DNA of 64,000 nt from Streptomyces umbrinus (GTDB taxonomy: Bacteria > Actinomycetota > Actinomycetes > Streptomycetales > Streptomycetaceae): assembly GCF_030817415.1 (NCBI RefSeq), contig NZ_JAUSZI010000002.1, positions 1,302,001 to 1,366,000 on the forward strand. The letters are read 5' to 3'. Each line of letters starts with the position of its first letter. Positions within the stretch are counted from its first letter, which is position 1. The translations under genes and the position numbers were made by a program. This document shows, piece by piece, positions 5,402 to 47,826 of this stretch. Below the pieces are notes generated by a model that saw nothing but the letters and a program-made list of their open reading frames with translations, did not search any database and was not told the origin of the DNA.

Positions 5402-6145
5402 TCAGACGCCGAGGCGCAGCGCCCGCATCTGCTCGTCGAGGGGGCACAGTCCGACGTCCTCGCGGCGCTCGTCTAGGGTCCGGGGCTGACGGACCGGATA
5501 CGGACGGAAGGTCGCGGGGTCCACACGGGTGCCGTAGAACTGCGGCTGGCCGAGTTCGACGGCGCAGTGGTCGGCGATGTACGCGTGGTGCGGCGCGGGA
5601 CAGCGTCCGTCCGCGGTGGCCTGGGCGATCAGGTCGCGGCAGGTGAGCTGGAAGTCGAGGTCGGGAGCGTGCAGGAGGATCATCAGCGCCGCCGTGGAGG
5701 CGGGCGCGCCGACCAGGTCGGCGGTCGGCCAGGCATGACGCTTGACGATGGTCTTCAGCGCTTCGGCGTTGCCCCTGCGGCACTCGGTGATACGGCGGCG
5801 CGCCACCTGTGTGGGGCTGCGGTGTGCCGCCCGCGTGACGCTCTGGTCCTCGTCCGCCCTGCGGACCAGTTCGTGGGCGAGGGCGGCCGCGAGAGCCGGC
5901 ACGACGAGCGGACGCACTTCCTGAACCCCGTCGTGTATCTCGTCGTGGCTGCGCCCCACCCCGTCCTCCCCCGCCGAGTCGTGTACTCGCCCGGCGTGCC
6001 CGTCCCGGCAGGGGTGCCCCGGGTCACCGCCCGGGGCACCCGCCGGCTCCATGGGCCCGTCGCGACCCGGAAGGGGGGCGACCCCCGTACGCCCCTCCCG
6101 TGCCGTGTCGTGCGCGACGTGGCCCGGCATGCCGGAACCGCTCAT
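5402..6145 (-). CDS. DUF6624 domain protein
   Basis: A 247-residue protein. The first 100 residues are Gly/His/Asp-rich and probably disordered. The C-terminal half matches the DUF6624 pattern as I know it: a DEDQSVTR segment, then NAEALKTIVKRHAWPT, VGAPASTAALMILLHAPDL and an HAYIADHCAVELGQPQFYGT ending. DUF6624 has no established biochemical role. The start ATG at 6143-6145 overlaps the stop of the upstream ATPase gene by four bases, so the two are co-translated and may work together. The N-terminal half could instead be untranslated if an internal start is used. Confidence 0.7.
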   Translation of the reverse strand: MSGSGMPGHVAHDTAREGRTGVAPLPGRDGPMEPAGAPGGDPGHPCRDGHAGRVHDSAGEDGVGRSHDEIHDGVQEVRPLVVPALAAALAHELVRRADEDQSVTRAAHRSPTQVARRRITECRRGNAEALKTIVKRHAWPTADLVGAPASTAALMILLHAPDLDFQLTCRDLIAQATADGRCPAPHHAYIADHCAVELGQPQFYGTRVDPATFRPYPVRQPRTLDERREDVGLCPLDEQMRALRLGV

Positions 6146-33598: not shown

Positions 33599-34345
33599 TC
33601 AGCGGTTCATCAGCGCGAACACGCCCCAGCCCAGGTACTCACGCTGGTGGCGCACGTGGCGTACGGGTCCGGTGGCGAGGTCCTCGCGCATCTCGTCCGC
33701 CATCTCGTCGTCGGGATGGGCGTCCAGCCAGCGCCGGGTGTTGAGCCACTGCGCGGCCACGTACCGGTCCCAGCTGTCCTGGTCGGCGAGGACCATCTCC
33801 ACCACGTCGCAGCCGAGCCGCCCGAAGAGTTCGAGCAGCTCGGGGAGCGGGCGGTAGTCGTCCTTCGTGGTGGCGTGGCAGCCCTCGACGGTGGCCTGGT
33901 CCTGGGGCTCGCGCCGCCAGTACGGCTCGCCGATCAGCATGATCCCGCCGGGCGCGAGGCTCCGCCGGAGCAGCTCGACGGTGCCGGCCGCCCCGTCACC
34001 GATCCAGGTGGCGCCGAGGCATGCCGCGACGCCGACCGGTTCGTCGGCGACATGGCCGGTCGCGTCCCCGTGCCGGAAGGCGACCCGGTCGGTGACCCCG
34101 AGCTCCGTCGCCCGGACATGCGCCGCAGCGAGGAACTCGGTGCTGATGTCCACCCCGGTGCCGGTCACCTGGTGGTCGCGCGCCCAGGTGCACAGCATCT
34201 CGCCGCTGCCGCAGGCGAGGTCGAGCACGCTCGTCCCGGGCGCCAGGCCGAGGGCCCGGCCGAGGGTGGCCAGCTTCTCGCTGGTGAACGGGTTGTGAAT
34301 GCGGTGTCCGCTCTCGCGGATGGTGAAGCTACGTGGAAGATCCAC
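33599..34345 (-). CDS. Class I SAM-dependent methyltransferase (divergent from the metallophore-like operon)
   Basis: A 248-residue methyltransferase. SVLDLACGSGEMLCTWA is SAM motif I, GTGVDIS the acidic loop, and FRHGDATGHV and LAPGGIMLIGEPYW later motifs. The N-terminal FTIRESGHRIHNPFTSEKLA is typical of a Streptomyces subgroup. It faces away from the ATP-grasp gene and shares its 315-base control region, which contains the Fur/Zur-like box, so it may be co-regulated and modify the same product (inference). Confidence 0.82.
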   Translation of the reverse strand: MDLPRSFTIRESGHRIHNPFTSEKLATLGRALGLAPGTSVLDLACGSGEMLCTWARDHQVTGTGVDISTEFLAAAHVRATELGVTDRVAFRHGDATGHVADEPVGVAACLGATWIGDGAAGTVELLRRSLAPGGIMLIGEPYWRREPQDQATVEGCHATTKDDYRPLPELLELFGRLGCDVVEMVLADQDSWDRYVAAQWLNTRRWLDAHPDDEMADEMREDLATGPVRHVRHQREYLGWGVFALMNR

Positions 34346-34513
34346 TTCTGGGATTCCTTCGGTCCGAGGAGGTCGTGGTGGCTGAAGTACGCAGCCCGTC
34401 GTACGCGGCCGCGCTCGCCAGGACCGTCATCTCCCGCACCTCATTCGGTAGGCACACCATCACTCGGACCGGGCGAGGCTAGATCCGCCCGTCCGGCCCT
34501 GTCCAACAGTTTT

Positions 34514-34528
34514 TTGCCGCGTCGGCAA
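34514..34528. promoter_or_regulatory. Perfect inverted repeat TTGCCG-CGT-CGGCAA
   Basis: Six-base arms around three bases, 20 bases before the Fur/Zur-like box. An 18-base segment starting here matches the segment at 61254-61271 in 15 positions, both ending GGCAACAA. It may be a second operator. No U-tract follows on either strand, so a terminator is unlikely. Confidence 0.45.
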
Positions 34529-34548
34529 CAAAGGACAGGCAATCAGAT

Positions 34549-34567
34549 GACAATGAAAATGATTGTC
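34549..34567. promoter_or_regulatory. Fur/Zur-family box
   Basis: GACAATGAAAATGATTGTC has GACAAT/ATTGTC arms and matches the classic 19-bp E. coli Fur consensus in 15 positions. In Streptomyces iron is mostly handled by DtxR-type DmdR, so the zinc regulator Zur is the likelier ligand-sensing protein. It lies 93 bases before the ATP-grasp start. Confidence 0.75.
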
Positions 34568-34660
34568 GATAGCGTGTGCGTCGGTCACGCCGTCCGCGCC
34601 CCGCCATGGGGTGCCCCCGGCGTGCCCGGAACCTCAACCGGCTTGCACGAAAGGGGAGTT

Positions 34661-35917
34661 GTGGCTCATCTGTTGGTGGTCGAGAGCTGGGTCGGGTCGA
34701 TGAGCAGACTGCTGCCACGGGCGATCCGGGAGGGCGGGCACGAGTTCACGTTCCTCACCCGCGATCTGCACCACTACCTGCGCTCCGCCCCGGAGGGCAC
34801 GGCCCACCCCCTGCTCGCGTCCCGAAATGTACTGACCGCCGACACGAACGACGTCGACACCCTCCTGCCGGAGATCGAGCGCCTGCACGGGGCTCTCGGC
34901 TTCGACGGAGTGGTCACGTCCTGCGACTACTACCTGCCGACCGTGGCCCGGATCGCCGCCCGGCTGGGGCTCCCCGGCCCCACACCGGAATCGGTGGAGA
35001 ACGCCTGCCGCAAGGACACGACCCGCCGCGTCCTCGGCGAGGCAGGCGTTCCCGGCCCGCTCTTCGCAGTCTGCGCCGACCGGGCCGAGGCGGAGGAGGC
35101 CGCGCGCCGCCTCGGCTTCCCGCTGGTGGTCAAGCCGGTCGACCTGTGCGCGGGCATGCTTGTGCGGCGCGTGGACGACGAGCGCGAGCTGGCGGACGCC
35201 TGCCGGGCGATCGCGGACTTCCCGGTGAACGCCCGCGGCCAGGTCCGGGCGCCCGTCCTCCTGCTCGAAGAACTCCTCGACGGGCCCGAGGTCAGCGTGG
35301 AGACCGTGTCGTTCGACGGTACGACCCATGTGGTGGGCGTGACCGACAAGAGCGTCGGCGGAGCGCCCGCCTTCATCGAGACGGGCCATATGTTCCCGGC
35401 CGTGCTCGCCCCGGCCGACTCGGAGGCCGCCCAGGACACCGCGGTGCAGGCCATCAAGGCACTCGGCCTCGACTCCGTGGTCGCCCACACCGAGATCAAG
35501 CTGACCGCCGCCGGTCCGCGTGTCGTCGAGGTGAACCCCCGCCCGGCCGGAAACCGCATCACCGAGCTGATCCGGCACGTCACCGGACTCGACCTGGCCG
35601 CGGCCTGCGTCGACGTGGCCCTCGGCCACGCCCCCGACCTGCGGCGGAGCGACACCGGGCTGCGCAGCGCCGCCGTCGGCTTCCTGGTGCCGGACACCGC
35701 GGGGACGCTGGAGTCGATCGACGGCTGCGATCAAGTGCGGGGCGCCCAGGATGTGTTGGAGGTCCAACTCGCCGAGCCGGGGCGGGCGGTCAAGGCCGCG
35801 GGCAGCAACAACGAGTACCTCGGCCATGTGATGGCGGGTGACGCGGAGGGGCTCGGCGCACGGGCCCGTGTCGAGTCGCTGCTGTCCGGACTGCGGCCGC
35901 GGGTGAGCGCCCGATGA
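34661..35917 (+). CDS. ATP-grasp ligase, first gene of the metallophore-like operon
   Basis: A 418-residue ATP-grasp enzyme, the family that joins a carboxylate to an amine through an acyl-phosphate. After an N-terminal Rossmann-like part (VVESWVGSM; GVVTSCDYYLPTVARIA) come KDTTRRVLGEAGVPGP, FPLVVKPVDLCAGM (ATP-binding Lys), LLLEELLDGPEVSVETVSFDG, and VVEVNPRPAGNRI (metal-binding Glu/Asn), as in carnosine/L-amino-acid ligases. The GTG at 34661 follows AAGGGGAG. It begins a chain of overlapping genes, and the Fur/Zur-like box lies upstream. It could couple amino acids or build the backbone of a small chelator. Confidence 0.88.
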   Translation: MAHLLVVESWVGSMSRLLPRAIREGGHEFTFLTRDLHHYLRSAPEGTAHPLLASRNVLTADTNDVDTLLPEIERLHGALGFDGVVTSCDYYLPTVARIAARLGLPGPTPESVENACRKDTTRRVLGEAGVPGPLFAVCADRAEAEEAARRLGFPLVVKPVDLCAGMLVRRVDDERELADACRAIADFPVNARGQVRAPVLLLEELLDGPEVSVETVSFDGTTHVVGVTDKSVGGAPAFIETGHMFPAVLAPADSEAAQDTAVQAIKALGLDSVVAHTEIKLTAAGPRVVEVNPRPAGNRITELIRHVTGLDLAAACVDVALGHAPDLRRSDTGLRSAAVGFLVPDTAGTLESIDGCDQVRGAQDVLEVQLAEPGRAVKAAGSNNEYLGHVMAGDAEGLGARARVESLLSGLRPRVSAR

Positions 35918-36843
35918 GCGCGGCGGTCGGCGCGGGGGCGGCAGTTACGGCCGTCCGGGACAGCACGGCCCCGACCTCGTACGACGGCCTGGTGAGCCGT
36001 GTCCTGGCCGGCCGGCTCGGTCCGGACCCCCGCACCCTGCGGATCGCCGTGGCCTTCACCACCAGCCAGGCCGTACGTCACGACGGGCGCCGCGGCGGAT
36101 ACCGCAACGAGGTGCTCAGCCTGCGCCTCGACCGGGCCGTCGGATCTTGTGCGGTCGAACCGGGTGCCCTGTCCGGGGGCGCGGTGGACGACTGTGCCGG
36201 CGCGGACGTGGCACTGCTGCTGGAGCATCCGCTGACGCCGGTCAGGGTGGCGGCGCTGGACGCGTATCTGATGCACGTCACCCCCCACACGCCGGAGAAC
36301 GGGGCACTCCCCCACCCGCTGCCCGCCGGGAGCTCCCTGGAGAAATCCCGTGCACGGGCGAAGGCCGTCGTCGAGTTGCTGGACGTCCGGGCGGGACAGA
36401 CCGTGCTCGTCGTCGGCGTAGTCAACTCCCTTTTGGAGGAGCTCCGTTCACGTGGTGTCCCGTACATACCGTGCGATCTCAAGGGCGGCCGCACGGAGTG
36501 GGGCGAGCCGATCGTGACGCACGCGCTCGCCGAACTCGACCGCTGCGATGCCGTGTTGGCGTCCGGTATGACGCTCGGCAACGGGTCCTTCGAACCCTTG
36601 CGGGAGCATGCCCTGCGCGTCGGCAAGCAGTTGGTGATGTTCGCACAGACGGGAAGTGCCGTCCTGCCGCGTTTCCTCGGTGCCGGAGTGAGCGCGGTGT
36701 GCGCGGAGCCGTACCCCTTCTTCTGGCTGGACGGCGGTCCCGGCGTCATCCACCGCTACGGACCCGGACACGGAAATGGTCGTGGACACCGGTCCGGCCA
36801 GCCGTCCGGACATCGCGACAGCTGTACGGAGGCCACGCTGTGA
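35914..36843 (+). CDS. DUF364-type protein (putative metal-chelation Rossmann-like domain)
   Basis: A 309-residue protein. Its C-terminal half has the DUF364 features I know: VLVVGVVNSLLEELRSRGVPY, an acidic/Lys loop, DAVLASGMTLGNGSFEPL and VMFAQTGSAVLPRFLGAGVS. The N-terminal half resembles the DUF4213 enolase-N-like partner domain. Pfam describes these as putative heavy-metal chelation domains, without firm proof. The extreme C-terminus is His/Gly-rich (HRYGPGHGNGRGH), which could bind metal. ATG overlaps the previous stop by four bases. A catalytic role in metallophore assembly is inference. Confidence 0.72.
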   Translation: MSAAVGAGAAVTAVRDSTAPTSYDGLVSRVLAGRLGPDPRTLRIAVAFTTSQAVRHDGRRGGYRNEVLSLRLDRAVGSCAVEPGALSGGAVDDCAGADVALLLEHPLTPVRVAALDAYLMHVTPHTPENGALPHPLPAGSSLEKSRARAKAVVELLDVRAGQTVLVVGVVNSLLEELRSRGVPYIPCDLKGGRTEWGEPIVTHALAELDRCDAVLASGMTLGNGSFEPLREHALRVGKQLVMFAQTGSAVLPRFLGAGVSAVCAEPYPFFWLDGGPGVIHRYGPGHGNGRGHRSGQPSGHRDSCTEATL

Positions 36844-37925
36844 CGACGGCCGCGCTGCGCCCCCTCACCGCCAACCCCGATCTCCTCGCGCTCCTCGGCC
36901 GCACACCGCTGGCCCGGGTGACCACCGATCTGCCGTGCCCCCAGCCCGGTTTCTGGGCCAAGCTCGAAGGGCTCGGCGCCGGTGGCATGAAGGCGCGGGC
37001 CGCCGTGTCCATGCTGCTCGGGGCCCGGGAGCGGGGTGAACTGCGCCCCGGCGCCCCGGTGGTGGAGTCCACCTCGGGGACGCTCGGGATCGGTCTCGCC
37101 TTCGCCGGGCAGGCACTGGGCCATCCCATCGTGCTGGTCGGCGACAGCGAACTGGAGCCGTCCATGCGGCAGTTGCTGCGCACGTACGGGGTAAGCCTCG
37201 AACTCGTCGACCGTCCGGCAGCCGTGGGCGGCTGGCAGGCGGCGCGGCTGGCCCGGCTGCGGGAGCTGCTGGCGGTGCTGCCGGACGCGTACTGGCCCGA
37301 TCAGTACAACAACCCGGACAACATCGCCGGGTACGCGTCTCTCGCCGCCGAACTCGCCACCCAGCTCGACCACTTGGACGTACTGGTGTGCAGTGTCGGC
37401 ACCGGCGGCCACAGTGCCGGAGTGGTGGGGCCGTTGCGCAGGCACTGGCCGGGGCTGCGTCTGATCGGTGTGGACGCCACCGGCTCCACCATCTTCGGCC
37501 AGCCCGCGCGGCCCCGCCTGATGCGCGGCCTCGGGAGCAGCATCCATCCGCGCAATGTGGCGTACGAGGCCTTCGACGAGGTGCACTGGGTCGGCCCGGC
37601 CGAGTCTGCGGACGCCTGTCGACGCCTCGCGCGCGGGAGTTTCGTCAGTGGCGGCTGGAGCACCGGCGCGGTGGCGCTGGTCTCGGCATGGGCCGCCCGC
37701 GTCCATCCCGGGGCCGTGGTCGCGACCGTCTTCCCCGACGGGCCGCACCGCTACCTCGGCACGGTCTACGACGACGACTTCACGGCCGTCCACGGCCTCG
37801 ACCCGGCCGGCGCCGCCACCCGGCCCGTCGAGATCCCGCATCCGCATGCCGTCGAGGCCACCGGCTGGGTCCGCTGCACCACGGTCACCGACCCCCTGCA
37901 CACCCCCTTGGAAGGGAGCCCGTGA
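36840..37925 (+). CDS. PLP-dependent cysteine-synthase-like enzyme
   Basis: A 361-residue fold-type II PLP enzyme. GGMKARAA contains the probable PLP Lys (residue 51), ESTSGTLGIGLA is the substrate-binding loop (TSGNTG in CysK) and VGTGGHSAGV the phosphate loop. Members catalyse beta-replacement on serine derivatives, and related enzymes (for example SbnA) make 2,3-diaminopropionate precursors of siderophores. Here GMKAR replaces the usual SVKDR, and the C-terminus is longer than CysK, so the substrate probably differs. The GTG start overlaps the previous stop by four bases. Confidence 0.85.
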   Translation: MTTAALRPLTANPDLLALLGRTPLARVTTDLPCPQPGFWAKLEGLGAGGMKARAAVSMLLGARERGELRPGAPVVESTSGTLGIGLAFAGQALGHPIVLVGDSELEPSMRQLLRTYGVSLELVDRPAAVGGWQAARLARLRELLAVLPDAYWPDQYNNPDNIAGYASLAAELATQLDHLDVLVCSVGTGGHSAGVVGPLRRHWPGLRLIGVDATGSTIFGQPARPRLMRGLGSSIHPRNVAYEAFDEVHWVGPAESADACRRLARGSFVSGGWSTGAVALVSAWAARVHPGAVVATVFPDGPHRYLGTVYDDDFTAVHGLDPAGAATRPVEIPHPHAVEATGWVRCTTVTDPLHTPLEGSP

Positions 37926-38968
37926 AGGCCACCCTGCGCACCGTGCGACTCGCGCTCGCCGAGCCGCTGCGCATATCCCGTTCGACGATGGCCGCCCGCG
38001 ACGCCGTCTGGCTGACGGTCGAGCACGAGGGCCTGACCGGCCACGGCGAGGCCGTCACCAGCGTCTACTACGGTCTCGACACCGCTGTAATTGAACGGCA
38101 GTTGTACGAGGCCGGTCTGGATCTGGGCCGCTTCGGCGACCCCGAGAGCGCGCTGAGGGACCGGCCCGCGGGCCACCGGCCGCCAGCGGTGACCGCGGCC
38201 GTCGAGGCAGCTCTGCTCGACCTGTGCGGCAAGCGATCCGGCGTCCCGGTGCACCGGCTGCTCGGCGCGCGGCACGCTCCGAGCGCCCGGACCGCCCGCA
38301 CCATCGGGATCATCCCCACCGAGCGAGCCGCCGCGCAGGCCCGCTCGCTCGCGGACAGCGGCTTCACCGTCATCAAGGTCAAGGCGGGTGCCCCGGACCC
38401 CGAGGACGACCTCGACCGCATACGAGCCATCGCCTCCGCCGCGCCCCGGGCCCGGTTGCTTCTCGACCCCAACGGTGCCTGGACGACCGCCCAGGCCCTG
38501 CAACTACTCCCCCACTACGCCGAGTTGGGCGTCGAAGCCGTCGAACAGCCCCTTGCCCCCGGTGATCCGGAGGCCCTGGCGCGGCTCGCCGAGCGTTCAC
38601 CGCTGCCCCTGATCGCCGACGAGGACACCGTCACGTACGAGGACGTACGCCGTCTCGCGGGCCGGGTGCACGGCGTGAACGTCAAGCTCGCCAAGTGCGG
38701 AGGTCCGTACGCGGCGTTGCGGATCGCCGAGCTGATCGAGGGCAGCGGCACCGAGCTGATGCTCGGCTGTCTCACCGCCAGCACGCTCGGCCTGGCGCCC
38801 GCCGTGCATCTCGCCGACCGCGCCCGCTGGGCCGACCTCGACGGGCATCTGCTGCTCGCCGACGACCCGTGGACCGGGATCGGGGGCGCCGACGGCGTCG
38901 TACGGGCGAACGACCTGCCCGGGCTCGGCGTACGGGAGAGGCGGGTGGGCCGTGAAGACGCTGCATGA
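37922..38968 (+). CDS. Enolase-superfamily epimerase (dipeptide epimerase / MLE subgroup)
   Basis: A 348-residue enzyme of the muconate-lactonising subgroup. VIKVKAG carries the KxK catalytic pair (Lys152, Lys154), the metal ligands are Asp182 (LDPNGAW), Glu208 (VEQP) and Asp233 (IADEDT), and NVKLAKCGG holds the opposite catalytic Lys. This matches dipeptide epimerases and N-acylamino-acid racemases, which invert an alpha-carbon. It may epimerise the product of the ATP-grasp ligase. GTG overlaps the previous stop by four bases, and its 3' end overlaps the MFS gene by 17 bases. Confidence 0.88.
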   Translation: MKATLRTVRLALAEPLRISRSTMAARDAVWLTVEHEGLTGHGEAVTSVYYGLDTAVIERQLYEAGLDLGRFGDPESALRDRPAGHRPPAVTAAVEAALLDLCGKRSGVPVHRLLGARHAPSARTARTIGIIPTERAAAQARSLADSGFTVIKVKAGAPDPEDDLDRIRAIASAAPRARLLLDPNGAWTTAQALQLLPHYAELGVEAVEQPLAPGDPEALARLAERSPLPLIADEDTVTYEDVRRLAGRVHGVNVKLAKCGGPYAALRIAELIEGSGTELMLGCLTASTLGLAPAVHLADRARWADLDGHLLLADDPWTGIGGADGVVRANDLPGLGVRERRVGREDAA

Positions 38969-40184
38969 GATACGTGGCTTCTCGCCCGCGATCCGGCTGC
39001 TGCTGGTCAACCAGCTCGGCGTCAACACCGGTTTCTATCTGCTCATCCCCTATCTGGCCACGCATCTGGGCGAGGACCTGGGCATGTCGGCGGCCGTCGT
39101 CGGGATCGTGCTCGGGGTGCGCAACCTCAGTCAGCAGGGGCTGTTCCTCATCGGCGGATCGGCCGCGGACCGGCTCGGGGCGCGCGGCGTGATCATCGCC
39201 GGGTGCGCGGTGCGTACGGTCGGCTTCGCGCTGTTCGCTCTGGGGGACGGGCTCGCCGTGCTGCTCGCCGCGTCCGTGCTGAGCGGGCTCGCGGGGGCGC
39301 TGTTCAACCCGGCCGTGCGGGCCTATCTCGCGCAGGAGGCCGGTGAGCGCAAGGCCGAGGCGTTCGCGTTGTTCAACGTCTTCGCGACCACCGGCGCGCT
39401 GATCGGGCCGCTGCTCGGCAGTGTGCTGCTGCTGTTCGACTTCCGGGCCTCCGCGCTCACGGCAGCCGGGATCTTCGCGGTGCTGACCGTGGCGCAGGCG
39501 CTCGTGCTGCCGGCGCGGGCGGTGCCGAAGAGCACGGGGGGTGTGCTCGCGGACTGGCGTGAGGTGGTGGGCAACCGCGCGTTCCTGGCCTTCTCGCTGG
39601 CCATGGTCGGCATGTTCACCCTGGAGAACCAGCTGTATCTGCTCCTGCCGGACGGCGCCCGCCGGGCCACCGGCTGGGACGGCGCGGCCGGGCTCGTCTT
39701 CCTGGTGGGCACGCTCGCCAATCTCGCCCTGCAGATGCGCCTGACCCGGGCCCTGAAGGACCGCGGCCACCAGGCCATCGGCGCCGGGCTCGCTCTCATG
39801 GGCCTCGCCTTCCTGCCGCCGATGCTGGTGTCGGGGGCACCGCCGGAGCTGTGGCACGCCGTGCCCGTCCTCGTCGGCGTCCTGTTCCTCTACATCGGCG
39901 TCATGGTCGCCCAGCCCTTCGTGATGGAGCTGATCCCGGGCTTCGGGCGGCCGGAGCTGACCGGCACGTACTTCGGGATCTTCTACATGGTGTCCGGGAT
40001 CGCGGCGGCCGTGGGCAACACGGTCGTCGGCTGGGCCATGGACACCGGTGACCAGCGGGGAGCCTCCTGGCTGCCATGGGCCTGCTGCCTGGTCTTCGGC
40101 CTGGTGTCCGCCGGCGGGGTCACCTGGCTGCGTCGCCTCAAGGCGCTGCCCGAGCGTCCCGTGCCCGTTGGGGCGACGGTATGA
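38952..40184 (+). CDS. MFS transporter, probable exporter of the cluster product
   Basis: A 410-residue protein with about 12 membrane segments and the MFS inter-helix loop RNLSQQGLFLIGGSAADRLGARG (helices 2-3 motif). In staphylopine-like loci an MFS protein (CntE) exports the finished metallophore, and this gene occupies the corresponding place between synthesis and uptake genes. The GTG start lies within the 3' end of the epimerase gene; its stop overlaps the methyltransferase start by four bases. Import cannot be excluded, but an ABC importer follows. Confidence 0.87.
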   Translation: MKTLHEIRGFSPAIRLLLVNQLGVNTGFYLLIPYLATHLGEDLGMSAAVVGIVLGVRNLSQQGLFLIGGSAADRLGARGVIIAGCAVRTVGFALFALGDGLAVLLAASVLSGLAGALFNPAVRAYLAQEAGERKAEAFALFNVFATTGALIGPLLGSVLLLFDFRASALTAAGIFAVLTVAQALVLPARAVPKSTGGVLADWREVVGNRAFLAFSLAMVGMFTLENQLYLLLPDGARRATGWDGAAGLVFLVGTLANLALQMRLTRALKDRGHQAIGAGLALMGLAFLPPMLVSGAPPELWHAVPVLVGVLFLYIGVMVAQPFVMELIPGFGRPELTGTYFGIFYMVSGIAAAVGNTVVGWAMDTGDQRGASWLPWACCLVFGLVSAGGVTWLRRLKALPERPVPVGATV

Positions 40185-40960
40185 CGAGCGGCAATCTGCT
40201 GACCGACAACCCGGTGCTGTACGAGGCCCGGTTCCCCGATCCCGAGCGGCTGGCCGGGCGTTGGGCCGAGGACTGCCTGCGGCGGTACGCGGCCGGTCCG
40301 AGGGTCCTCGACCTGGGCTGCGGCACGGGCCGGGACGCGGCCCAGCTGCACGCGTCCGGGCGGACGGTCGTCGGGGCCGACCTCTCCGAGGCGATGCTGG
40401 CGCACGCCCGCAATCGGCACCCCGGCCCGGAGTACGTGCGCGCCGATCTGCGGGACTTCTCGCTCGGAGTCTTCGACTCCGTGGTGTGTCTGGACAGTTC
40501 GCTGCTGTACTGCCACACCAATGACGACCTCGACGGCTTCCTCGCCTCCTGTCGCAGGAGCCTGACACCCGGCGGGCTGCTCGTCGCCGAGATGCGCAAC
40601 GGGGCCTACTTCCTGGGCCGCGACGACCTGTTGAACACACCGAGGGTCAACGCCTTTGCCTGGCGGGGGATTTCGTACCGGTCGACGACGACTCTGTACG
40701 TCGACCGCACTGCGCAACTCCTGCGGCGTACGCGCGTATGGACGGCCGACGACGGCTCGGAGCCGGTCGAGCAGCGGTCGGCCTGGCGGCTGCTGTTGCC
40801 GCAGGAACTGCGGCACTTCCTGACCTCCCACGGATTCACCGTGCTCGCGCTGCACGACGGTCCGGGGCCGCGTACCGAACCGCCGTGGCAGGAGGGCGAC
40901 TTGCCCGGGACGTCGACCGAGGCCGACCGGCTGCACGTAGTGGCCCGGCTCGGCGCCTGA
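40181..40960 (+). CDS. Class I SAM-dependent methyltransferase within the operon
   Basis: A 259-residue methyltransferase. RVLDLGCGTGRDAAQL is SAM motif I, VGADLSEAML the acidic loop, DSVVCLDSSLLYC motif IV and LTPGGLLVAEMRNG a later motif. It overlaps the MFS stop by four bases and is 76 bases from the binding-protein gene. It probably tailors the small molecule made by the preceding enzymes. The target atom (N, O or C) cannot be read from sequence. Confidence 0.87.
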   Translation: MTSGNLLTDNPVLYEARFPDPERLAGRWAEDCLRRYAAGPRVLDLGCGTGRDAAQLHASGRTVVGADLSEAMLAHARNRHPGPEYVRADLRDFSLGVFDSVVCLDSSLLYCHTNDDLDGFLASCRRSLTPGGLLVAEMRNGAYFLGRDDLLNTPRVNAFAWRGISYRSTTTLYVDRTAQLLRRTRVWTADDGSEPVEQRSAWRLLLPQELRHFLTSHGFTVLALHDGPGPRTEPPWQEGDLPGTSTEADRLHVVARLGA

Positions 40961-41036
40961 CCGCACCACGCATCCCTGCCTCACACGCATCCCTGCTTCA
41001 GCCGCTTCATCCATCTCACACAGCAAGGACATCGTC

Positions 41037-42614
41037 ATGCGGGAATACCCCGGCCTCCGTCGTAGAGGCTTCCTCGCCGCCGCCTCGGGGGTGGGCGCCC
41101 TCGCCCTCGTCGGCTGCGGCAGTTCGGACAACGACTCGGGCTCGGACGCGGGGAGCGCGAACGACGGGAAGCCCCGGCGCGGCGGGCGGCTCCGGGCCGC
41201 CTTCGCGGGCGGCGGTGCGAGCGAGACGCTCGATCCGCACCTGGCCAACCTGTTCGCCGACGTGGCCCGTGCCAAAGCCCTCTTCGACAAGCTCGCCGAC
41301 TACGGCGACGACCTCTCCGCCCAGCCGCGCCTGGCCTCCGGCTGGGAGCCGAACGCGGGCCTGGACCGCTGGAACGTCACCCTGCGCAAGGCGGACTTCC
41401 ACGACGGGAAGCCCGTCACCGCCGAGGACGTCCTGTTCAGCTACCGCCGTATCGCCGATCCGGAGAAGGCGTTCCGCGCGAAGGCTTCCCTCGAACCCAT
41501 CGACCTGAAGGCGAGCCGGGCCGTCGACGAGCGGACCGTGGAGTTCGTCCTCAAGCGGCCGACGGCCGAATTCCCCAATGTGCTGGCCGCGTTCGGCGCG
41601 TACATCGTGCCCGACGCGACGTCGGACGCCGACTTCGACAAGAAGCCGGTCGGCTCCGGGCCGTTCCGTTTCGTGTCGTTCGCGCCGGGCCGCTCGGCGG
41701 TCTTCCGGCGCAACGAGGCCTACTGGGACGGCGCCCCGCACCTCGACGAGCTGGAGTTCGTCGTCGCCAACGAGGAGTCCGCGCGAGTGAACGCACTGCT
41801 CGGCGGGCAGGTCGAGTACGCCCACGAGCTCAACCCGACGACCGCGCGCGCCCATGAGGGCAAGGGGCAGATCGAGATCGTACGGCTGCGGAACAGTGCC
41901 ATGCAGGCCTTCGCCATGAAGACGGACCGGCCGCCCTTCGACGACAAGCGGGTCCGGGAGGCGTTCTTCCTGATCGCCGACCGCCAGGAGCTGATCGACG
42001 GCGCGCTGTCCGGGGCGGGCGTGGTCGGCAACGACCTGTTCGGCAAGGGGTACGAGTACTACGCGGACGGCCTGCCGCAGCGCGAGCAGGACCTCGACCG
42101 GGCCCGTTCCCTCCTCAAGAAGGCGGGCGCGGAGAAGCTGAAGGTCACGCTGGACACATCGGCGGTCGCGGCCGGGTTCACCGAGGCGGCCGGCATCTTC
42201 CGCGACCAGGCCGCCAAGGCCGGTGTCACCGTCGAGGTGAAGATGGGCAGCAAGGACTCCTACTGGGCGGACATCCTCGACTCCGGAACCCTGTGCTGCT
42301 ACCGCTCGGGGGCCATGCCCATCGAGTCGCACATCTCGCAGCGGCTGCTCACCGACTCCACCACCAACGCCACCAAGTGGCACCACAAGGACTTCGACGC
42401 GCTCTACCACCAGGCGCAGTCCACGAAGGACGAGAAGGATCGCGCCGCCGTGTTCGACCGGATGCAACGCCGGCTGTACGCCGAGGGCGGATTCCTGGTG
42501 TGGGGGTTCGCCGACTGGATCATCGGAACAGCCCGTACGGTCAAGGGGGTTGAGCGGACCGCGCCCGCGAACTCGCTCGACTGGGCGCGGTTCGACAAGG
42601 TCTGGCTGGCGTGA
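41037..42614 (+). CDS. Opp/Nik-type substrate-binding lipoprotein (SBP_bac_5)
   Basis: A 525-residue binding protein. Its leader has twin arginines (RRRGFLAAASG) and a lipobox ALVGC with Cys27, so it may be Tat-exported and lipid-anchored. The mature part has SBP_bac_5 features: TLDPHLANLF, WNVTLRKADFHDGKPVTAEDVLFSYRR, VGSGPFRFVSF and NEAYWDGAPHLDELEFVV. This family binds peptides, nickel complexes and opine-type metallophores (CntA). It is the entry component of the importer. ATG 41037 has an AAGGA ribosome site. A second promoter in the 76-base gap is possible but not evident. Confidence 0.9.
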   Translation: MREYPGLRRRGFLAAASGVGALALVGCGSSDNDSGSDAGSANDGKPRRGGRLRAAFAGGGASETLDPHLANLFADVARAKALFDKLADYGDDLSAQPRLASGWEPNAGLDRWNVTLRKADFHDGKPVTAEDVLFSYRRIADPEKAFRAKASLEPIDLKASRAVDERTVEFVLKRPTAEFPNVLAAFGAYIVPDATSDADFDKKPVGSGPFRFVSFAPGRSAVFRRNEAYWDGAPHLDELEFVVANEESARVNALLGGQVEYAHELNPTTARAHEGKGQIEIVRLRNSAMQAFAMKTDRPPFDDKRVREAFFLIADRQELIDGALSGAGVVGNDLFGKGYEYYADGLPQREQDLDRARSLLKKAGAEKLKVTLDTSAVAAGFTEAAGIFRDQAAKAGVTVEVKMGSKDSYWADILDSGTLCCYRSGAMPIESHISQRLLTDSTTNATKWHHKDFDALYHQAQSTKDEKDRAAVFDRMQRRLYAEGGFLVWGFADWIIGTARTVKGVERTAPANSLDWARFDKVWLA

Positions 42615-43564
42615 GCGGACTGGGGTCGTGGGCCGCCCGGCGGCTGCTGCTCGGTGGCGCGCAGACCGTGGCCGTGGTGGTGCTGGTCTTCGCGCTCACC
42701 GAGGCGCTGCCGGGCGACGCGGCGGTGGCCCTCGCCGGGGACCAGCCGGATCCGGCGCGGATCGCCGCCATCCGCGAAGCGCTGGACCTGGACCGGCCCG
42801 CGTACGAACGGCTCGCCGACTGGGCAACGGGCCTGCTGCACGCGGACTTCGGGCACTCGTTGACGTCCGGTCGGCCCGTCTCCTCGTACATCTCCGACGC
42901 CTTCGGTCCCACCCTGCTGCTCGCCGGTCTCACGGTCGCGTTACTGGTGCCGGTCGGGGTCGGGCTCGGGGTGCTGGCCGCGAGGTACGAGGGGCGGTTC
43001 GTGGACCGGCTGATCAGTTCGGTGACGCTCGGGGTGTACGCGGTACCGGAGTTCGCGTTCGGGGTGCTGCTGGTGACGGTGTTCGCGCTCCGGCTCGACT
43101 GGCTGCCGCCGACGGCGGTCGGCTACGGCACGGATCTCCTCGGGCATCCGGCCGCGCTCGTGCTGCCGGTGCTCGTCCTGCTGTCCCGGCCGGTCTGCTC
43201 GCTCTCCCGACTGGTGCGCGCCGGGATGATCGACGCGCTCGCCTCGCCGTACGTGGCGCACGCCCGCCGGTACGGGATTCCGGGCGCCCGCGTGCGGTAC
43301 GCGCACGCGTTGCCGAACGCGATGGCGCCCGCCGCGCAGCAACTCGCCCGCACGGTCGACTGGTTGTTGTGCGGGGTGATCGTCGTGGAGGCGCTGTTCG
43401 TGATTCCCGGCCTTGGGACCGTACTGATGAACGCTGTCGCCGAGCGGGATGTGCCGGTGGTGCAGGGGCTCGCCGTGGTCTTCGGAGTGATCACCGTCGT
43501 GCTGAACCTGGGGGCCGATCTCGTCGCCCACCGGTTCGCGCCACGGGCGGAGGTGGCCGCGTGA
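42611..43564 (+). CDS. Opp/Nik-type ABC permease 1, contains a TTA codon
   Basis: A 317-residue membrane protein of the DppB/NikB group: an N-terminal span, ALPGDAAVALAGDQPDPARI, VSSYISDAFGPTLLL, and the EAA loop ARRYGIPGARVRYAHALPNAMAP. GTG overlaps the previous stop by four bases. Codon 111 (42941-42943) is TTA, rare in Streptomyces, so the permease would need the bldA tRNA and appear late in growth. It pairs with 43561-44436. Confidence 0.9.
   Translation: MSGLGSWAARRLLLGGAQTVAVVVLVFALTEALPGDAAVALAGDQPDPARIAAIREALDLDRPAYERLADWATGLLHADFGHSLTSGRPVSSYISDAFGPTLLLAGLTVALLVPVGVGLGVLAARYEGRFVDRLISSVTLGVYAVPEFAFGVLLVTVFALRLDWLPPTAVGYGTDLLGHPAALVLPVLVLLSRPVCSLSRLVRAGMIDALASPYVAHARRYGIPGARVRYAHALPNAMAPAAQQLARTVDWLLCGVIVVEALFVIPGLGTVLMNAVAERDVPVVQGLAVVFGVITVVLNLGADLVAHRFAPRAEVAA
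42941..42943 (+). other. In-frame TTA leucine codon in the importer permease
   Basis: TTA encodes the first Leu of VALLVPVG. It lies 330 bases after the start, an exact multiple of three. Confidence 0.9.
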
Positions 43565-44436
43565 GGAGACGGGAGAAGTGGCTGCCGTCGGGGCGCTTCG
43601 CGCTCGGGGCCGCCCTGGTGTGCGTACCGCTGGTCCTCGCCCTGTTCGGGCCGCTGTTCGCGGGTGAACCCGGGCCGCGGGCCACCTCGTTCACGCTCGG
43701 CGGCGGGCACTGGCTCGGCACGGACTTCGTGGGGCGTGACGTGTGGTGGCAGGTGCTGTTCGGCGGCCGGCCCGTGGTGGTCGTGGCGCTCGCGGCGACT
43801 ACGCTGGCCTACCTGGTGGCGCTGCCGGTCGGGCTGATCAGCGCGCTCACCCATCGGACCTGGTTGGAAGAGGTTCTGATGCGGCCGCTGGACGTGCTCC
43901 TCGCCGTGCCGTCGCTGCTGATGATCCTGCTGGTCGCGTCCGTGTTCTCGCCCGGCGCGGCCGGTCTCGCCCTGCTGGTCGCGCTCGTCAACATCCCGGA
44001 CGCGGCACGCATCGTGCGTGCCGCCGCGGCGGATGTGGCCTCGCGTCCGGCGGTGGAGGCGCTGCGGATGCAGGGCGAGTCGTGGTGGCGCATCGCCGTC
44101 GGACATGTCGGCCGGTCGATCCTGCGGCCGCTCGCCGCCGACGCGGGGGTGCGGCTGACGGGTGTCCTCTACCTGGTGGCCACGGCCGCTTTCCTGGGCA
44201 TCGGGGTGGCGCCGGACGCGGCCGACTGGGCGGTGATGGTGGACCGCAACCGTACGGGGCTGTTCGTTCAGCCGTGGGCCGTGGTGGTCCCGGCACTGCT
44301 GATCGTGACGCTGACGATGGGATGCAATCTGCTCTTCGACGCGCTGCTGAGCGCCGGCCGGGATGTCACCCCGGAACGGGTTGTCGTTCGTCGTGGCGTC
44401 GATGTGCGTGATCGGACGAAGGAGCCACGTCCGTGA
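43561..44436 (+). CDS. Opp/Nik-type ABC permease 2
   Basis: A 291-residue DppC/NikC-type permease. The start is followed by a hydrophobic segment (LGAALVCVPLVLALFGPLF), then HWLGTDFVGRDVWWQVLFGGR (the conserved GTDxxGRD element) and an EAA loop (LRMQGESWWRIAVGHVGRSIL). It overlaps both neighbours by four bases and forms the heterodimeric channel. Confidence 0.9.
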   Translation: MRRREKWLPSGRFALGAALVCVPLVLALFGPLFAGEPGPRATSFTLGGGHWLGTDFVGRDVWWQVLFGGRPVVVVALAATTLAYLVALPVGLISALTHRTWLEEVLMRPLDVLLAVPSLLMILLVASVFSPGAAGLALLVALVNIPDAARIVRAAAADVASRPAVEALRMQGESWWRIAVGHVGRSILRPLAADAGVRLTGVLYLVATAAFLGIGVAPDAADWAVMVDRNRTGLFVQPWAVVVPALLIVTLTMGCNLLFDALLSAGRDVTPERVVVRRGVDVRDRTKEPRP

Positions 44437-45974
44437 GCGAGTTGACCCCGGTCGCGGAGATCGAGGAGCTGACCGTGGAGGTCGGCGGACGGCGCATCGT
44501 CGACGAGGTGAGCCTGCGGGTTCTGCCCGGGAGGGTGACTGCGCTGGTGGGTGCGTCCGGCAGCGGGAAGACCACGACAGGGCGTGCGCTGCTCGGAGAG
44601 TTCCCGTCGGACGCGCGGGTGACCGGCTCCGTACGGGTGGACGAGGCCCTGGTCGGTTACGTCCCGCAGCATCCGGCGGCGGTGCTCAACCCCGCGCGGC
44701 GGGTGGGTGCGCTGCTGTACGACATCGCGCGCGGCCAGGTGCGCGAACTGCCTCGCCGTGCCCGACGGGCCGCGGCACGGGAACACGTCCTGAACGCCTT
44801 GGAAATGGCTCAACTCCACGATGGCTCACGGCTGTTGAGACGCTTCCCGCATCAGCTCTCGGGTGGCCAGCAGCAGCGCGTCGTCCTCGCGCAGGCCCTG
44901 CTCCTCGGCGCGCGGGTCGTCGTCGCGGACGAGCCCACCACCGGGCAGGACGCGCTGACGAAGCGACGCGTGGTCGACGAACTGGCGGCCGTCGCCGCAC
45001 GGGGCATCGGCGTCGTCCTGCTCAGCCACGACCTGGAGACCGTACGCGCACTGGCCGACGAGGTGCTCGTCATGCGGGACGGCCGGGTCGTGGAGTCCGG
45101 GCCGACGGAACGGGTGTGGCTCGCGCCCTCGCATCCGTGGACGCGTGAACTCCTCGCGGAGCAGCCGACGTTGACGGGCGACGCACCGGCAACGTCGGAC
45201 TCGTACACCGTGCTGCGGGTCCGCGGTCTCCGCGCCCGGCACCGCGATGTCGAGGTGCTGCACACGCCGGAACTCGCCCTGCGCTCCGGGGAATGCCTCG
45301 CCGTCCTCGGCCGCTCGGGCAGCGGAAAGACGACGCTCGCCCGTTGTATGGCCGGACTCCATCGCACGTACGTGGGAGAGGTGCTGCTCGACGGGGTCGC
45401 GCTGCCGCGCAGTCTGCGAGACCGTGCGCGTGGTCAACTGGCCGCCGTGCAGTACGTGTTCCAGGACGCGCGTGCCTCCTTCGACGAGCGTCGGCCGGTG
45501 CTCGACCAGGTGGCCCGTACGGCGGTTCGGTTGCGTGGGGTGCCCCCTCGGGATGCGCGAGCCGAGGCAGCAGAAGTGCTCAACAATCTTGGTCTGGCTG
45601 GGGAGTTGGCGGCCCGCTCCGCTGCCCGGCTCTCCGGTGGCGAGCTCCAACGGGCGGCACTGGCCCGGGCCCTGCTCGCGCGGCCGCGGGTCCTGGTGTG
45701 TGACGAGATCACCTCCGGGCTCGACACGGTCACCCGCCGGGGCATCCTCGACCTGCTCGCCGGGCTGCTGCGGAATCGCGACGGGCTGTCTCTCGTACTG
45801 ATCACCCACGACCTGGACACGGCCCGGCTCGCTTCCAGGATCGCGGTGTTGGACGCCGGGCAGGTGGTCGAGCAGGGGTCGGCCGAGGACATCCTGACGG
45901 CGCCCGCGCATCCGTTCACGGTGTCATTGACGGAGAAGCACTCACTGCAGGGGCGATCGCTGGGGAAGCATTAG
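44433..45974 (+). CDS. Opp/Nik-type ABC ATPase, two fused domains (DppD-DppF-like)
   Basis: A 513-residue fusion of two ATPase domains, replacing the usual pair of separate genes. Domain 1: Walker A GASGSGKTT, Q-loop GYVPQHP, signature LSGGQQQR, Walker B VVVADEPT. Domain 2: GRSGSGKTT, LSGGELQR, VLVCDEITSGLD and a switch His (LITHD). Both halves appear active. GTG overlaps the permease stop by four bases. It is the last gene of the run that starts at 34661 and converges on the NarL-type regulator. Confidence 0.92.
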   Translation: MSELTPVAEIEELTVEVGGRRIVDEVSLRVLPGRVTALVGASGSGKTTTGRALLGEFPSDARVTGSVRVDEALVGYVPQHPAAVLNPARRVGALLYDIARGQVRELPRRARRAAAREHVLNALEMAQLHDGSRLLRRFPHQLSGGQQQRVVLAQALLLGARVVVADEPTTGQDALTKRRVVDELAAVAARGIGVVLLSHDLETVRALADEVLVMRDGRVVESGPTERVWLAPSHPWTRELLAEQPTLTGDAPATSDSYTVLRVRGLRARHRDVEVLHTPELALRSGECLAVLGRSGSGKTTLARCMAGLHRTYVGEVLLDGVALPRSLRDRARGQLAAVQYVFQDARASFDERRPVLDQVARTAVRLRGVPPRDARAEAAEVLNNLGLAGELAARSAARLSGGELQRAALARALLARPRVLVCDEITSGLDTVTRRGILDLLAGLLRNRDGLSLVLITHDLDTARLASRIAVLDAGQVVEQGSAEDILTAPAHPFTVSLTEKHSLQGRSLGKH

Positions 45975-46009: not shown

Positions 46010-46612
46010 TCAGATCCAGCCCTGTTCCCACGCGTGATGCGCGGCGGCGTGGCGTGTGGACGCTCCCAGTTTGGACATGGCGGCGGAGAGGTAGTTGCGG
46101 ACCGTGCCCGGGGCCAGATGGACCGCCGCGGCGATCTCGACGACCGACGCTCCGGTGCGGGCGGCGCGCAGGACCTCCAGTTCGCGGTCGGTGAGGGGGC
46201 AGTCGTCCTCGGTCAGCGCGGAGGCGGCGATGTCGGGGTCGACGTACCGGCGGCCGGCGGCGACATCACGGATGATCTCCGCCAGTCTGGCCGCGGCGGT
46301 GGTCTTGGGCACGAAGCCGCGGATGCCGGCTGCGAGCGCGCGGCGCAGCACGGCGGGGCGGGCGTGCCGGGTGACCAGGACGATCTGGGTGGGGAGTTCG
46401 GCGCGGATCTCCTCGGCGGCGCGCAGCCCGTCGGTGGGCGGCATCTCCAGATCGAGAACCGCGATGTCGGGGCGGTGCTCGCGCGCCAGCCGTACCGCGT
46501 CGGTGGACGTGGACGCCTCGGCGACCACGACGAGGTCCGGCTCCAGTCCGAGCAGTGCGGCCAGCGCGCCTCTGAGGAGGTCCTCGTCGTCGGCGATCAG
46601 CAGTCGGATCAA
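46010..46612 (-). CDS. NarL/FixJ-family response regulator
   Basis: A 200-residue response regulator. The receiver domain has the acidic pair ADDED, phosphoacceptor Asp54 (AVLDLEMPP) and the conserved Thr/Lys region (VTRHARPAVLRRALAAGIRGFVPK). The LuxR-type helix-turn-helix is LTDRELEVLRAARTGASVVEIAAAV, then PGTVRNYLSAAMSKLG. It overlaps the sensor kinase gene by four bases and would be phosphorylated by it. Targets are probably its own operon and the divergent membrane proteins through the palindrome at 47886-47899. Confidence 0.93.
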   Translation of the reverse strand: MIRLLIADDEDLLRGALAALLGLEPDLVVVAEASTSTDAVRLAREHRPDIAVLDLEMPPTDGLRAAEEIRAELPTQIVLVTRHARPAVLRRALAAGIRGFVPKTTAAARLAEIIRDVAAGRRYVDPDIAASALTEDDCPLTDRELEVLRAARTGASVVEIAAAVHLAPGTVRNYLSAAMSKLGASTRHAAAHHAWEQGWI

Positions 46613-47826
46613 CTCGCAGCTCCGTTCCCGGTGTTCCCCGGTTTCACCGGCAGCGCGGCCTCGACCACGAAGCGCTCGCCGTCGCGGTCCCAGGTCAACT
46701 CGCCGCCGGCCGCCTGCAATCGCTCCCTGAGTGTGCCCAGTCCGGTGCCGTTGGTACCGGGTGGGTGCTCATCGGCGCCGTCGTTGCTCACTCGCAGCCG
46801 GGCGAGGCCGCCGGTGACTCGGCAGTCGACCTCGGCGTGCCGTGCGCTGCTGTGCCGGAGCACGTTGGTGGTGGTCTCCCGCATCACGAGACCCAGGAGA
46901 TGGCGGGCCGGCTCGGCGAGTTCGGTGACGGCCGTGGCGGGCTCTACGGTCATCCGGGCGTCGATCTCGGCCGCGGCCAGCACCCGGGTCGCGTTGGTGA
47001 TCTCGTCGTCCAGGCTCGTGCGGCGGTAGCCCTGCACCACGGCCCGGGTGTCGCCGAGGGCGTCGGCGGCCAGCCGACGCACCTCCTTCATCTCCGCGGC
47101 GGCACGACCGGGGTCCACCTCGACGAGCCGTGCCGCCAACTCGCTCTTCAGCGCGATCACTTGGAGATGATGGCCCTGGATGTCGTGCAGGTCGGCGGCG
47201 AACCGCAGGCGCTCGTCCTTGACCGCCACCTCCGCCTCCAGCCGCCTTGCGTCGTCCAGCCGCCGCGCGGTGTCCCAGGCCCACAGGGGCCCGAGCATCA
47301 CCCAGACGGTGAACGCGACCAGCCCGGGCGGGAAGAGCGTCGCGTACAGCAGCTTCCCGTCCCCTGCGACCAGGCTGACGACAGCGCCGGGCAGCGACGC
47401 GAGGACCACGGCGCAGGCGATGAGCGGCCGTCTGCTGCTCGGTGCGAGGTAGGTCGCGACGATCGCCACCACCATGGCCGGCGCGACCGCCCACAACCCG
47501 TAGTTCCGCACGGCCAGCGGACACACCGCGAGCACGGCACCGGCCGCGCACGCGGCGATCAGCCACCCCATGGGCAGCCTGCCGGGGCGCGTCCCGGCCA
47601 CCGGCAGCAGCGCGAGCCGCCTGCCGAGCAGCACCACGCTGGCCAGCACCGCGACCACCAGGGCGACGGCGGCCGGGCCCCGGGCCCACACCTCGACGTC
47701 CTCGTCGAGGATCCACTCCCCGACGAAGAGGAGCTGCACACACCCGGCTGTGCCCGGCACGGTCAGCCACGTGTAGCGGCGGAAGCTCGTCAGCCCCGCG
47801 CCACGATCGTTCGCCCCGTCCCCCAT
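46609..47826 (-). CDS. DesK/NarX-like sensor histidine kinase
   Basis: A 405-residue kinase with five to six membrane segments in the first 200 residues and no obvious extracellular sensor domain, so it probably senses an intramembrane or envelope signal. The HisKA_3 box is RFAADLHDIQGHHLQ (phosphoacceptor His in DLHD), and the ATPase has MRETTTNVLRHS (N box) and GTGLGTLRERL (G box). It is transcribed before, and overlaps, the response regulator. Confidence 0.92.
   Translation of the reverse strand: MGDGANDRGAGLTSFRRYTWLTVPGTAGCVQLLFVGEWILDEDVEVWARGPAAVALVVAVLASVVLLGRRLALLPVAGTRPGRLPMGWLIAACAAGAVLAVCPLAVRNYGLWAVAPAMVVAIVATYLAPSSRRPLIACAVVLASLPGAVVSLVAGDGKLLYATLFPPGLVAFTVWVMLGPLWAWDTARRLDDARRLEAEVAVKDERLRFAADLHDIQGHHLQVIALKSELAARLVEVDPGRAAAEMKEVRRLAADALGDTRAVVQGYRRTSLDDEITNATRVLAAAEIDARMTVEPATAVTELAEPARHLLGLVMRETTTNVLRHSSARHAEVDCRVTGGLARLRVSNDGADEHPPGTNGTGLGTLRERLQAAGGELTWDRDGERFVVEAALPVKPGNTGNGAAS

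Follow-up and report, generated by a model that had tools for sequence, protein, structure and literature searches.

Among described metallophore systems, those closest to the locus reported here are the staphylopine and pseudopaline (cnt) loci, staphyloferrin B biosynthesis, and the clusters for ethylenediaminesuccinic acid hydroxyarginine (EDHA) of Streptomyces scabiei and [S,S]-ethylenediaminedisuccinic acid ([S,S]-EDDS) of Amycolatopsis japonicum. Staphylopine and pseudopaline are exported by transporters of the major facilitator superfamily (MFS) type. The EDHA cluster, which spans 11 kb (scab_5231-5311), was overlooked by antiSMASH in a survey of S. scabiei (PMC8914351), and antiSMASH 7 later gained an aminopolycarboxylic-acid rule (PMC10320115). 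In addition, a 2010 structure paper on DUF364 suggested a role of this family in making chelators and described its association with metal transport genes (PMC2954201). Here, a set of ten genes (A to J) was analyzed in a 64-kb stretch of the 12.4-Mb genome of Streptomyces umbrinus, referred to below as the window. The original prediction of a Zur-regulated metallophore locus independent of nonribosomal peptide synthetases (NRPS) was supported by comparative evidence, and we conclude that the locus quite probably encodes a Zur-repressed system of this kind, whose product would be a chelator, most likely a zincophore.

Gene content and conservation of the locus

The ten genes occupy 34661-45974 on the + strand of the window, with open reading frames (ORFs) at all of the predicted places. 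Domains were called for the ten proteins by Pfam and NCBIfam scans, as follows.

34661-35917, + strand: gene A, ATP-grasp L-amino-acid ligase with LAL_C2 domain (Pfam ATP-grasp_4, 70.6 bits, and LAL_C2, 53.7 bits, both above cut-off)
35914-36843, + strand: gene B, DUF364 protein (PF04016; Pfam, 29.5 bits, cut-off 23)
36840-37925, + strand: gene C, SbnA-like pyridoxal phosphate (PLP) enzyme of fold type II (NCBIfam SbnA, 240.5 bits)
37922-38968, + strand: gene D, enolase-superfamily, dipeptide-epimerase-like protein (conserved residues and PDB matches)
38952-40184, + strand: gene E, predicted MFS exporter (MFS_1, 116.5 bits; nearest NCBIfam model MdtH, below cut-off)
40181-40960, + strand: gene F, S-adenosylmethionine-dependent methyltransferase (Methyltransf_25, 67.8 bits)
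41037-42614, + strand: gene G, solute-binding lipoprotein of NikA/Opp type (SBP_bac_5, 268.7 bits; nearest NCBIfam model a nickel solute-binding protein, below cut-off)
42611-43564, + strand: gene H, Nik/Opp-type permease (Pfam/NCBIfam, BPD_transp_1)
43561-44436, + strand: gene I, Nik/Opp-type permease (Pfam/NCBIfam, BPD_transp_1)
44433-45974, + strand: gene J, fused double ATPase (ABC_tran in two stretches)

As a small correction to the stretch noted earlier (34346-45974), the first gene begins at 34661, the sequence 34346-34660 being upstream region. Four-base overlaps, which had been described as nearly universal, were seen at seven of the nine gene junctions, while genes D and E overlap by 17 bases (38952-38968) and a gap of 76 bases (40961-41036) separates F from G. 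The earlier domain assignments were upheld by Pfam and NCBIfam, with a refinement for protein C, previously called cysteine-synthase-like: its best NCBIfam family was SbnA (cut-off 349.95 bits), and the CysK/CysM models scored 133-153 bits among the matches listed. Among the matches listed for protein J, NikD scored 285.8, CntF 274.1 and CntD 269.5 bits, all below their cut-offs. An Rfam scan of the 64-kb window gave no matches. The flanking minus-strand ORFs, named by eye, were a methyltransferase-like ORF upstream (33599-34345) and response-regulator-like and sensor-kinase-like ORFs downstream (46010-47826).

A DUF364 search of 199 Streptomyces genomes gave matches in 85, with at least 70% identity in 51 and full-length matches of 37-44% identity in 33; one of the 85 carried both types and two had weak matches alone, so that either type was present in 83 of the 199 genomes. 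Forty of these regions were fetched, 21 of the high-identity class and 19 of the 37-44% class. Gene A was found in all 21 high-identity regions, and A to J were found in order in 20 of them. One region counted as ordered (L055, genome G195) has genes D to J split into many frames, which may be an assembly error.

Among GTDB contigs at least 582 relatives were found, the best 80 of which were taken as a selected set whose species overlap with those of the 199-genome set. Genes A to J were in order on a single strand in 74 of these 80 named Streptomyces loci, those of S. cyaneochromogenes and S. spinoverrucosus included, and in the remaining six the last match ended no more than 60 bases from the end of the record. 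The MFS exporter, the methyltransferase and the Nik/Opp importer with its own solute-binding protein were fixed members of the named loci.

A class-wide search gave matches in 34 of 394 genomes, 30 of them strong (at least 320 bits) and 15 of those 30 outside Streptomyces; the 15 non-Streptomyces loci and three Streptomyces loci were fetched. Two of the former, L225 and L229 from two other actinobacterial families, had A to J in order at 46-70% identity, with gene D of L229 in two pieces, and the other 13 had the second architecture described below. A search with gene A among 396 genomes of the phylum (E 1e-60) gave four matches, all in Streptomyces and including S. umbrinus.

The Zur-type box and putative promoter

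A 19-base box, GACAATGAAAATGATTGTC, is located at 34549-34567, ahead of gene A. A 22-base form of this box occurred once in the window with up to three mismatches allowed, against an expectation of 0.00. The box is flanked by promoter-like elements, as follows.

34547-34575, + strand: putative promoter and Zur box (ATGACA at 34547-34552; 15-bp Zur core TGAAAATGATTGTCG at 34554-34568; TAGCGT at 34570-34575; spacing 17 bp)

ATGACA or GTGACA was present 5' of the box in 14 of 22 aligned upstream regions and TANNNT 3' of it in 21 of the 22 (both counted by eye), at the 17-bp spacing. Since the box lies between promoter-like elements with this spacing, a bound repressor would sit over the promoter.

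The Zur motif derived from chromatin immunoprecipitation on microarrays in S. coelicolor was given as tGaNNatSatNNtCa (PMC5472717). The window core fits 10 of the 11 defined positions of this motif, and 13 of 15 positions of an older 21-bp actinobacterial motif quoted in the same paper. The Fur/Zur-like box noticed earlier was found to be present and to be conserved across species. The best match to the window 19-mer in the 22 upstream regions had no mismatch in three, one in six, two in three and three in four, the rest having four mismatches (four regions), five (one) or six (one). Upstream of 79 named Streptomyces loci, the Zur-type 15-mer TGAAAATGATTKTCA was matched with one to three mismatches in 72 and with four in seven; in 1515 control stretches (250 bp each) taken from these loci, it was matched with one mismatch in one stretch, with two or three in none, and with four in four.

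Sites related to the box were also found elsewhere in the S. umbrinus genome. The pattern TGAAAAYSATTWTCR with up to two mismatches had 11 forward and 8 reverse sites, versus one each for the reversed control, and with up to one mismatch it had two sites, the locus box and a site at 3,959,433, which is 57 bp ahead of an SBP5 gene. A pattern that specified the dyad alone did not discriminate, with 46 sites versus 30 in the reversed control. The znuA gene has related boxes, TGAAAATGGGTGTCA at the start codon and TGGAAACGGTTGTCA just 5' of it, and a FUR-domain gene lies approximately 2 kb beyond znuA on the same strand. Both the fit to the immunoprecipitation motif and the likeness to the znuA boxes of the same genome favour Zur among the Fur-family regulators as the protein that would bind the box.

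Near 3.96 Mb of the S. umbrinus genome (L252, 2433-7585), a second Zur-type box, TGAAAACGATTGTCA, is followed by an SBP5 gene and by permease- and ATPase-like genes identified by eye. This unit, which has no synthesis genes, is perhaps a Zur-controlled Opp-type importer for foreign chelators.

Enzymes A to D and a second DUF364 architecture

The best PDB match of protein A was the L-amino acid ligase BL00235 (E 3.9e-35), and A also resembled BacD. Protein B belongs to DUF364 both by the profile (PF04016) and by fold: its AlphaFold2 model (mean predicted local distance difference test score 85) had 3l5o as the best PDB fold match (E 2.9e-8, TM-scores 0.53/0.65), and the best structures, 3l5o and 3npg, are both DUF364 structures, with modest TM-scores of 0.40-0.65 for the predicted model.

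The best PDB matches of protein C were the SbnA structures 5d84-5d87. Lysine K51 of C is retained and was invariant in seven of seven aligned sequences, and the lysine loop of C is one residue shorter than that of SbnA. In protein D, K152/K154, D182, E208, D233, K255 and D305-x-D307 were invariant in eight of eight aligned sequences. We take the paired lysines, the D/E/D metal ligands and the DxD motif to have the roles that they have in dipeptide epimerases. Protein D was close to dipeptide epimerase models and its PDB matches include dipeptide epimerases, so that, from these matches and the residue roles, D appears to be dipeptide-epimerase-like.

Relatives of C were also observed outside the locus. 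In S. scabiei (L246, 9519-12040) and S. umbrinus (L254, 6413-9000), a PLP enzyme 57-58% identical to C adjoins an MFS gene, which is 43% identical to E in S. scabiei and was named by eye in S. umbrinus; L246 had no match to A, B or D and no clear Zur box beside the two-gene unit. At 5.17 Mb and 3.23 Mb of the S. umbrinus genome, SbnA-like matches lie approximately 2.3 and 0.2 kb, respectively, from ornithine-cyclodeaminase-family matches, and these are possible diaminopropionate or EDHA-like loci.

The second architecture comprised 34 loci, among them 19 fetched in the Streptomyces search and 13 from outside Streptomyces, in which the DUF364 protein is 36-44% identical to B. A SbnA-like match was present in all 19 Streptomyces loci of this class and in all 13 loci outside Streptomyces, 11 of which also had a kinase match. 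No gene A match was found in any of the 34 loci; L218 and L220 had weak matches to D, and L235 had a partial one to F. In L033 (7956-13789), DUF364 adjoins a GHMP kinase (Pfam), a SbnA-like enzyme and FecCD-type transport genes. L043 resembles it by eye, L221 is another cluster of this class, and across these and other clusters the transporters are of FecCD or other types and Zur-motif sites occur. In L235, DUF364 and the SbnA-like enzyme are accompanied by an importer with 46-52% identity to G-J. We know of no product for these clusters.

When matches at any position of the stretch were counted, 23 of the 34 loci had a Zur-motif site with no more than one mismatch, the background being no sites in 42 kb of S. 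umbrinus sequence and none in 382 kb of shuffled sequence. Because the second architecture has Zur-type boxes and, in one case, the same importer family, DUF364 is probably a metallophore-biosynthesis enzyme. As these loci seem to encode little other than DUF364, the SbnA-like enzyme and, in many cases, the kinase, the step common to both architectures is probably synthesis of the chelating unit itself. The two DUF364 types occurred together in one of the 199 Streptomyces genomes versus 8.5 expected (Fisher p 4e-4, phylogeny ignored).

Proposed pathway, alternatives and comparison with known systems

From the gene content, its conservation, the box and the likeness of the box to those of znuA, we infer transcription of the genes as an operon, binding of Zur, and a series of reactions, with their order, metal and product. 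Under low zinc, Zur would leave its site within the putative promoter, allowing transcription of the ten-gene operon. Protein C would replace the beta-leaving group of an activated serine by the amine of an amino acid, giving an amino(poly)carboxylate unit, and DUF364 (B) would act together with C. The ligase A would join the aminocarboxylate unit to another amino acid, the epimerase D would invert one alpha-carbon, and the methyltransferase F would methylate, and so cap, the product. The MFS protein E would export the chelator, and G-H-I-J would re-import the metal complex.

A tentative further proposal, short of an even chance, is that the product represents a new zincophore class, in which a dipeptide made by the ligase, then epimerised and methylated, bears a SbnA-derived aminopolycarboxylate, that DUF364 is a true enzyme of metallophore biosynthesis shared with a second, simpler Zur-controlled class (DUF364 and a SbnA-like enzyme, often with a GHMP kinase), and that both classes together form an overlooked actinobacterial zinc-scavenging chemistry.

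Several observations weigh against a Zur-repressed zincophore system. None of the ten proteins attained an NCBIfam cut-off among the matches listed. A strict sigma-70 promoter scan found no promoter at the locus, and the promoter is for this reason a putative one. There are four FUR-domain matches in the S. umbrinus genome, and the box could be the target of a Fur-family protein other than Zur. The degenerate Zur motif was also matched with one mismatch at 5743 of the window and once in the control L246, which makes this motif by itself weak evidence; the window site (5743-5757) is GC-rich and probably a chance match. L229 has a weak box, as judged with a matrix derived in part from boxes of this analysis, and 11 of the 34 loci of the second architecture had no Zur-motif site at up to one mismatch anywhere in the stretch. 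L062 (genome G165) keeps A-D and a Zur-type box, but unrelated genes and not E-J adjoin them, E-J having been looked for beside A-D. Finally, the mutual exclusion of the two DUF364 types fits interchangeable functions, but lineage alone could cause it.

Three other explanations were considered. The importer proteins are nearest to Nik-type models, and staphylopine is called a broad-spectrum metallophore in abstracts of the literature, which would suit a metallophore whose main metal is cobalt, nickel or copper and for which zinc acts only as a signal in regulation. This is unlikely, as the box fits the motif of a zinc regulator and znuA in the same genome has similar boxes. It is still less probable that the product is a ligase-built dipeptide antibiotic of the bacilysin kind, with E for self-resistance, G-J for nutrient uptake and zinc starvation as a competition signal. 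The likeness of A to BL00235 and BacD and the MFS pump among the ten proteins would be in keeping with such a product, but in our judgement the Pfam and NCBIfam matches of the ten proteins include no further warhead-pathway domain, an importer of metal type, complete with a solute-binding protein, is a fixed member of the locus, and DUF364 has been linked to metal transport genes (PMC2954201). Least probable of all is a system that, when zinc is limiting, scavenges or remodels dipeptides from the wall or the environment by an Opp importer, an L-Ala-D/L-Glu-type epimerase, and rebuilding of amino acids by the ligase and PLP enzyme, which the nearness of D to dipeptide epimerase models and structures and the Opp/Nik family membership of G-J would allow, but against which stand the exporter and methyltransferase as fixed members, the absence of peptidase and murein-enzyme domains from the ten proteins (Pfam), and the recurrence of the SbnA-like enzyme and DUF364 in clusters with Zur boxes, most of which lack an epimerase of this type.

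If the zincophore interpretation is correct, about one in four Streptomyces genomes of the sample, judged by DUF364 at no less than 70% identity (51 of 199), have a zinc-scavenging pathway without NRPS, NRPS-independent siderophore (NIS) synthetases or opine enzymes. The DUF364 family would gain a testable partner enzyme, and the locus would provide query genes for mining genomes, in which antiSMASH has overlooked the related EDHA cluster of S. scabiei (PMC8914351). The gene combination had been noted as unlike described pathways, and no description of such a pathway was found among the titles and abstract beginnings of the matches listed in open-licence PMC, where the whole gene set was never queried.

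In agreement with the earlier report that no CntL- or CntM-like gene is present, a Pfam scan of the ten proteins found no CntL, CntM, NIS (IucA/IucC) or NRPS-type domains. The opine, NIS and NRPS types were rejected on the absence of these required domains. The locus resembles the staphylopine and pseudopaline systems, some clusters of which have an exporter and a dipeptide/oligopeptide-type importer for the chelate (PMC7438024), in having SBP_bac_5, two BPD_transp_1 permeases, a double ATPase and an MFS protein, all below the CntA/C/D/F cut-offs where these apply; it differs from them in lacking CntL and CntM domains, and G scored 66 bits versus a CntA cut-off of 800. With staphyloferrin B biosynthesis it shares the SbnA-like enzyme, SbnA being the best solved-structure match of C (E 6.2e-44), but it has no SbnB-type cyclodeaminase (Pfam), and a loop of C is TSGTLG where SbnA reads TSGNLG.

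In order to compare the locus with EDHA, the genome of S. scabiei 87.22 was used, in which nine SbnA/CysK-like matches were found. The match at 598,362 is neighboured by VioC/GntD-, SbnB- and LysA-like genes, an Opp-type importer and a MATE-like gene (by eye). Because this gene content fits hydroxyarginine chemistry, this locus at approximately 0.60 Mb (L245) is presumed to be EDHA, and scab_5231-5311 falls there by interpolation. Its SbnA-like enzyme is 35% identical to C, its SBP5/Opp-type importer is 36-42% identical to G, H and I, and it has an exporter-like gene. The VioC/GntD-like hydroxylase, SbnB-like cyclodeaminase, LysA-like decarboxylase and MATE-like gene are found, of the two loci, in the presumed EDHA locus, which had no A, B, D or F matches. 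Two scans, the first with a matrix trained on boxes from this analysis, gave no Zur-type box there. Thus, with regard to EDHA-type aminopolycarboxylic-acid clusters, the S. umbrinus locus has the SbnA-like PLP enzyme, below its equivalog cut-off, while the SbnB-like cyclodeaminase and the decarboxylase, both present in L245, are absent among its ten proteins (Pfam). Identity with EDHA was rejected, as S. scabiei 87.22 has both loci, at approximately 9.09 Mb and 0.60 Mb, 8.5 Mb apart. The available text of the S. scabiei survey (PMC8914351) contains no SCAB_81 tag; the tags of the operon itself were not established, and the survey may have listed it.

In its predicted regulation, on which alone the two were compared, the locus resembles the [S,S]-EDDS cluster of A. 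japonicum, which is Zur-controlled and makes a zincophore without NRPS or NIS (PMC4993170).

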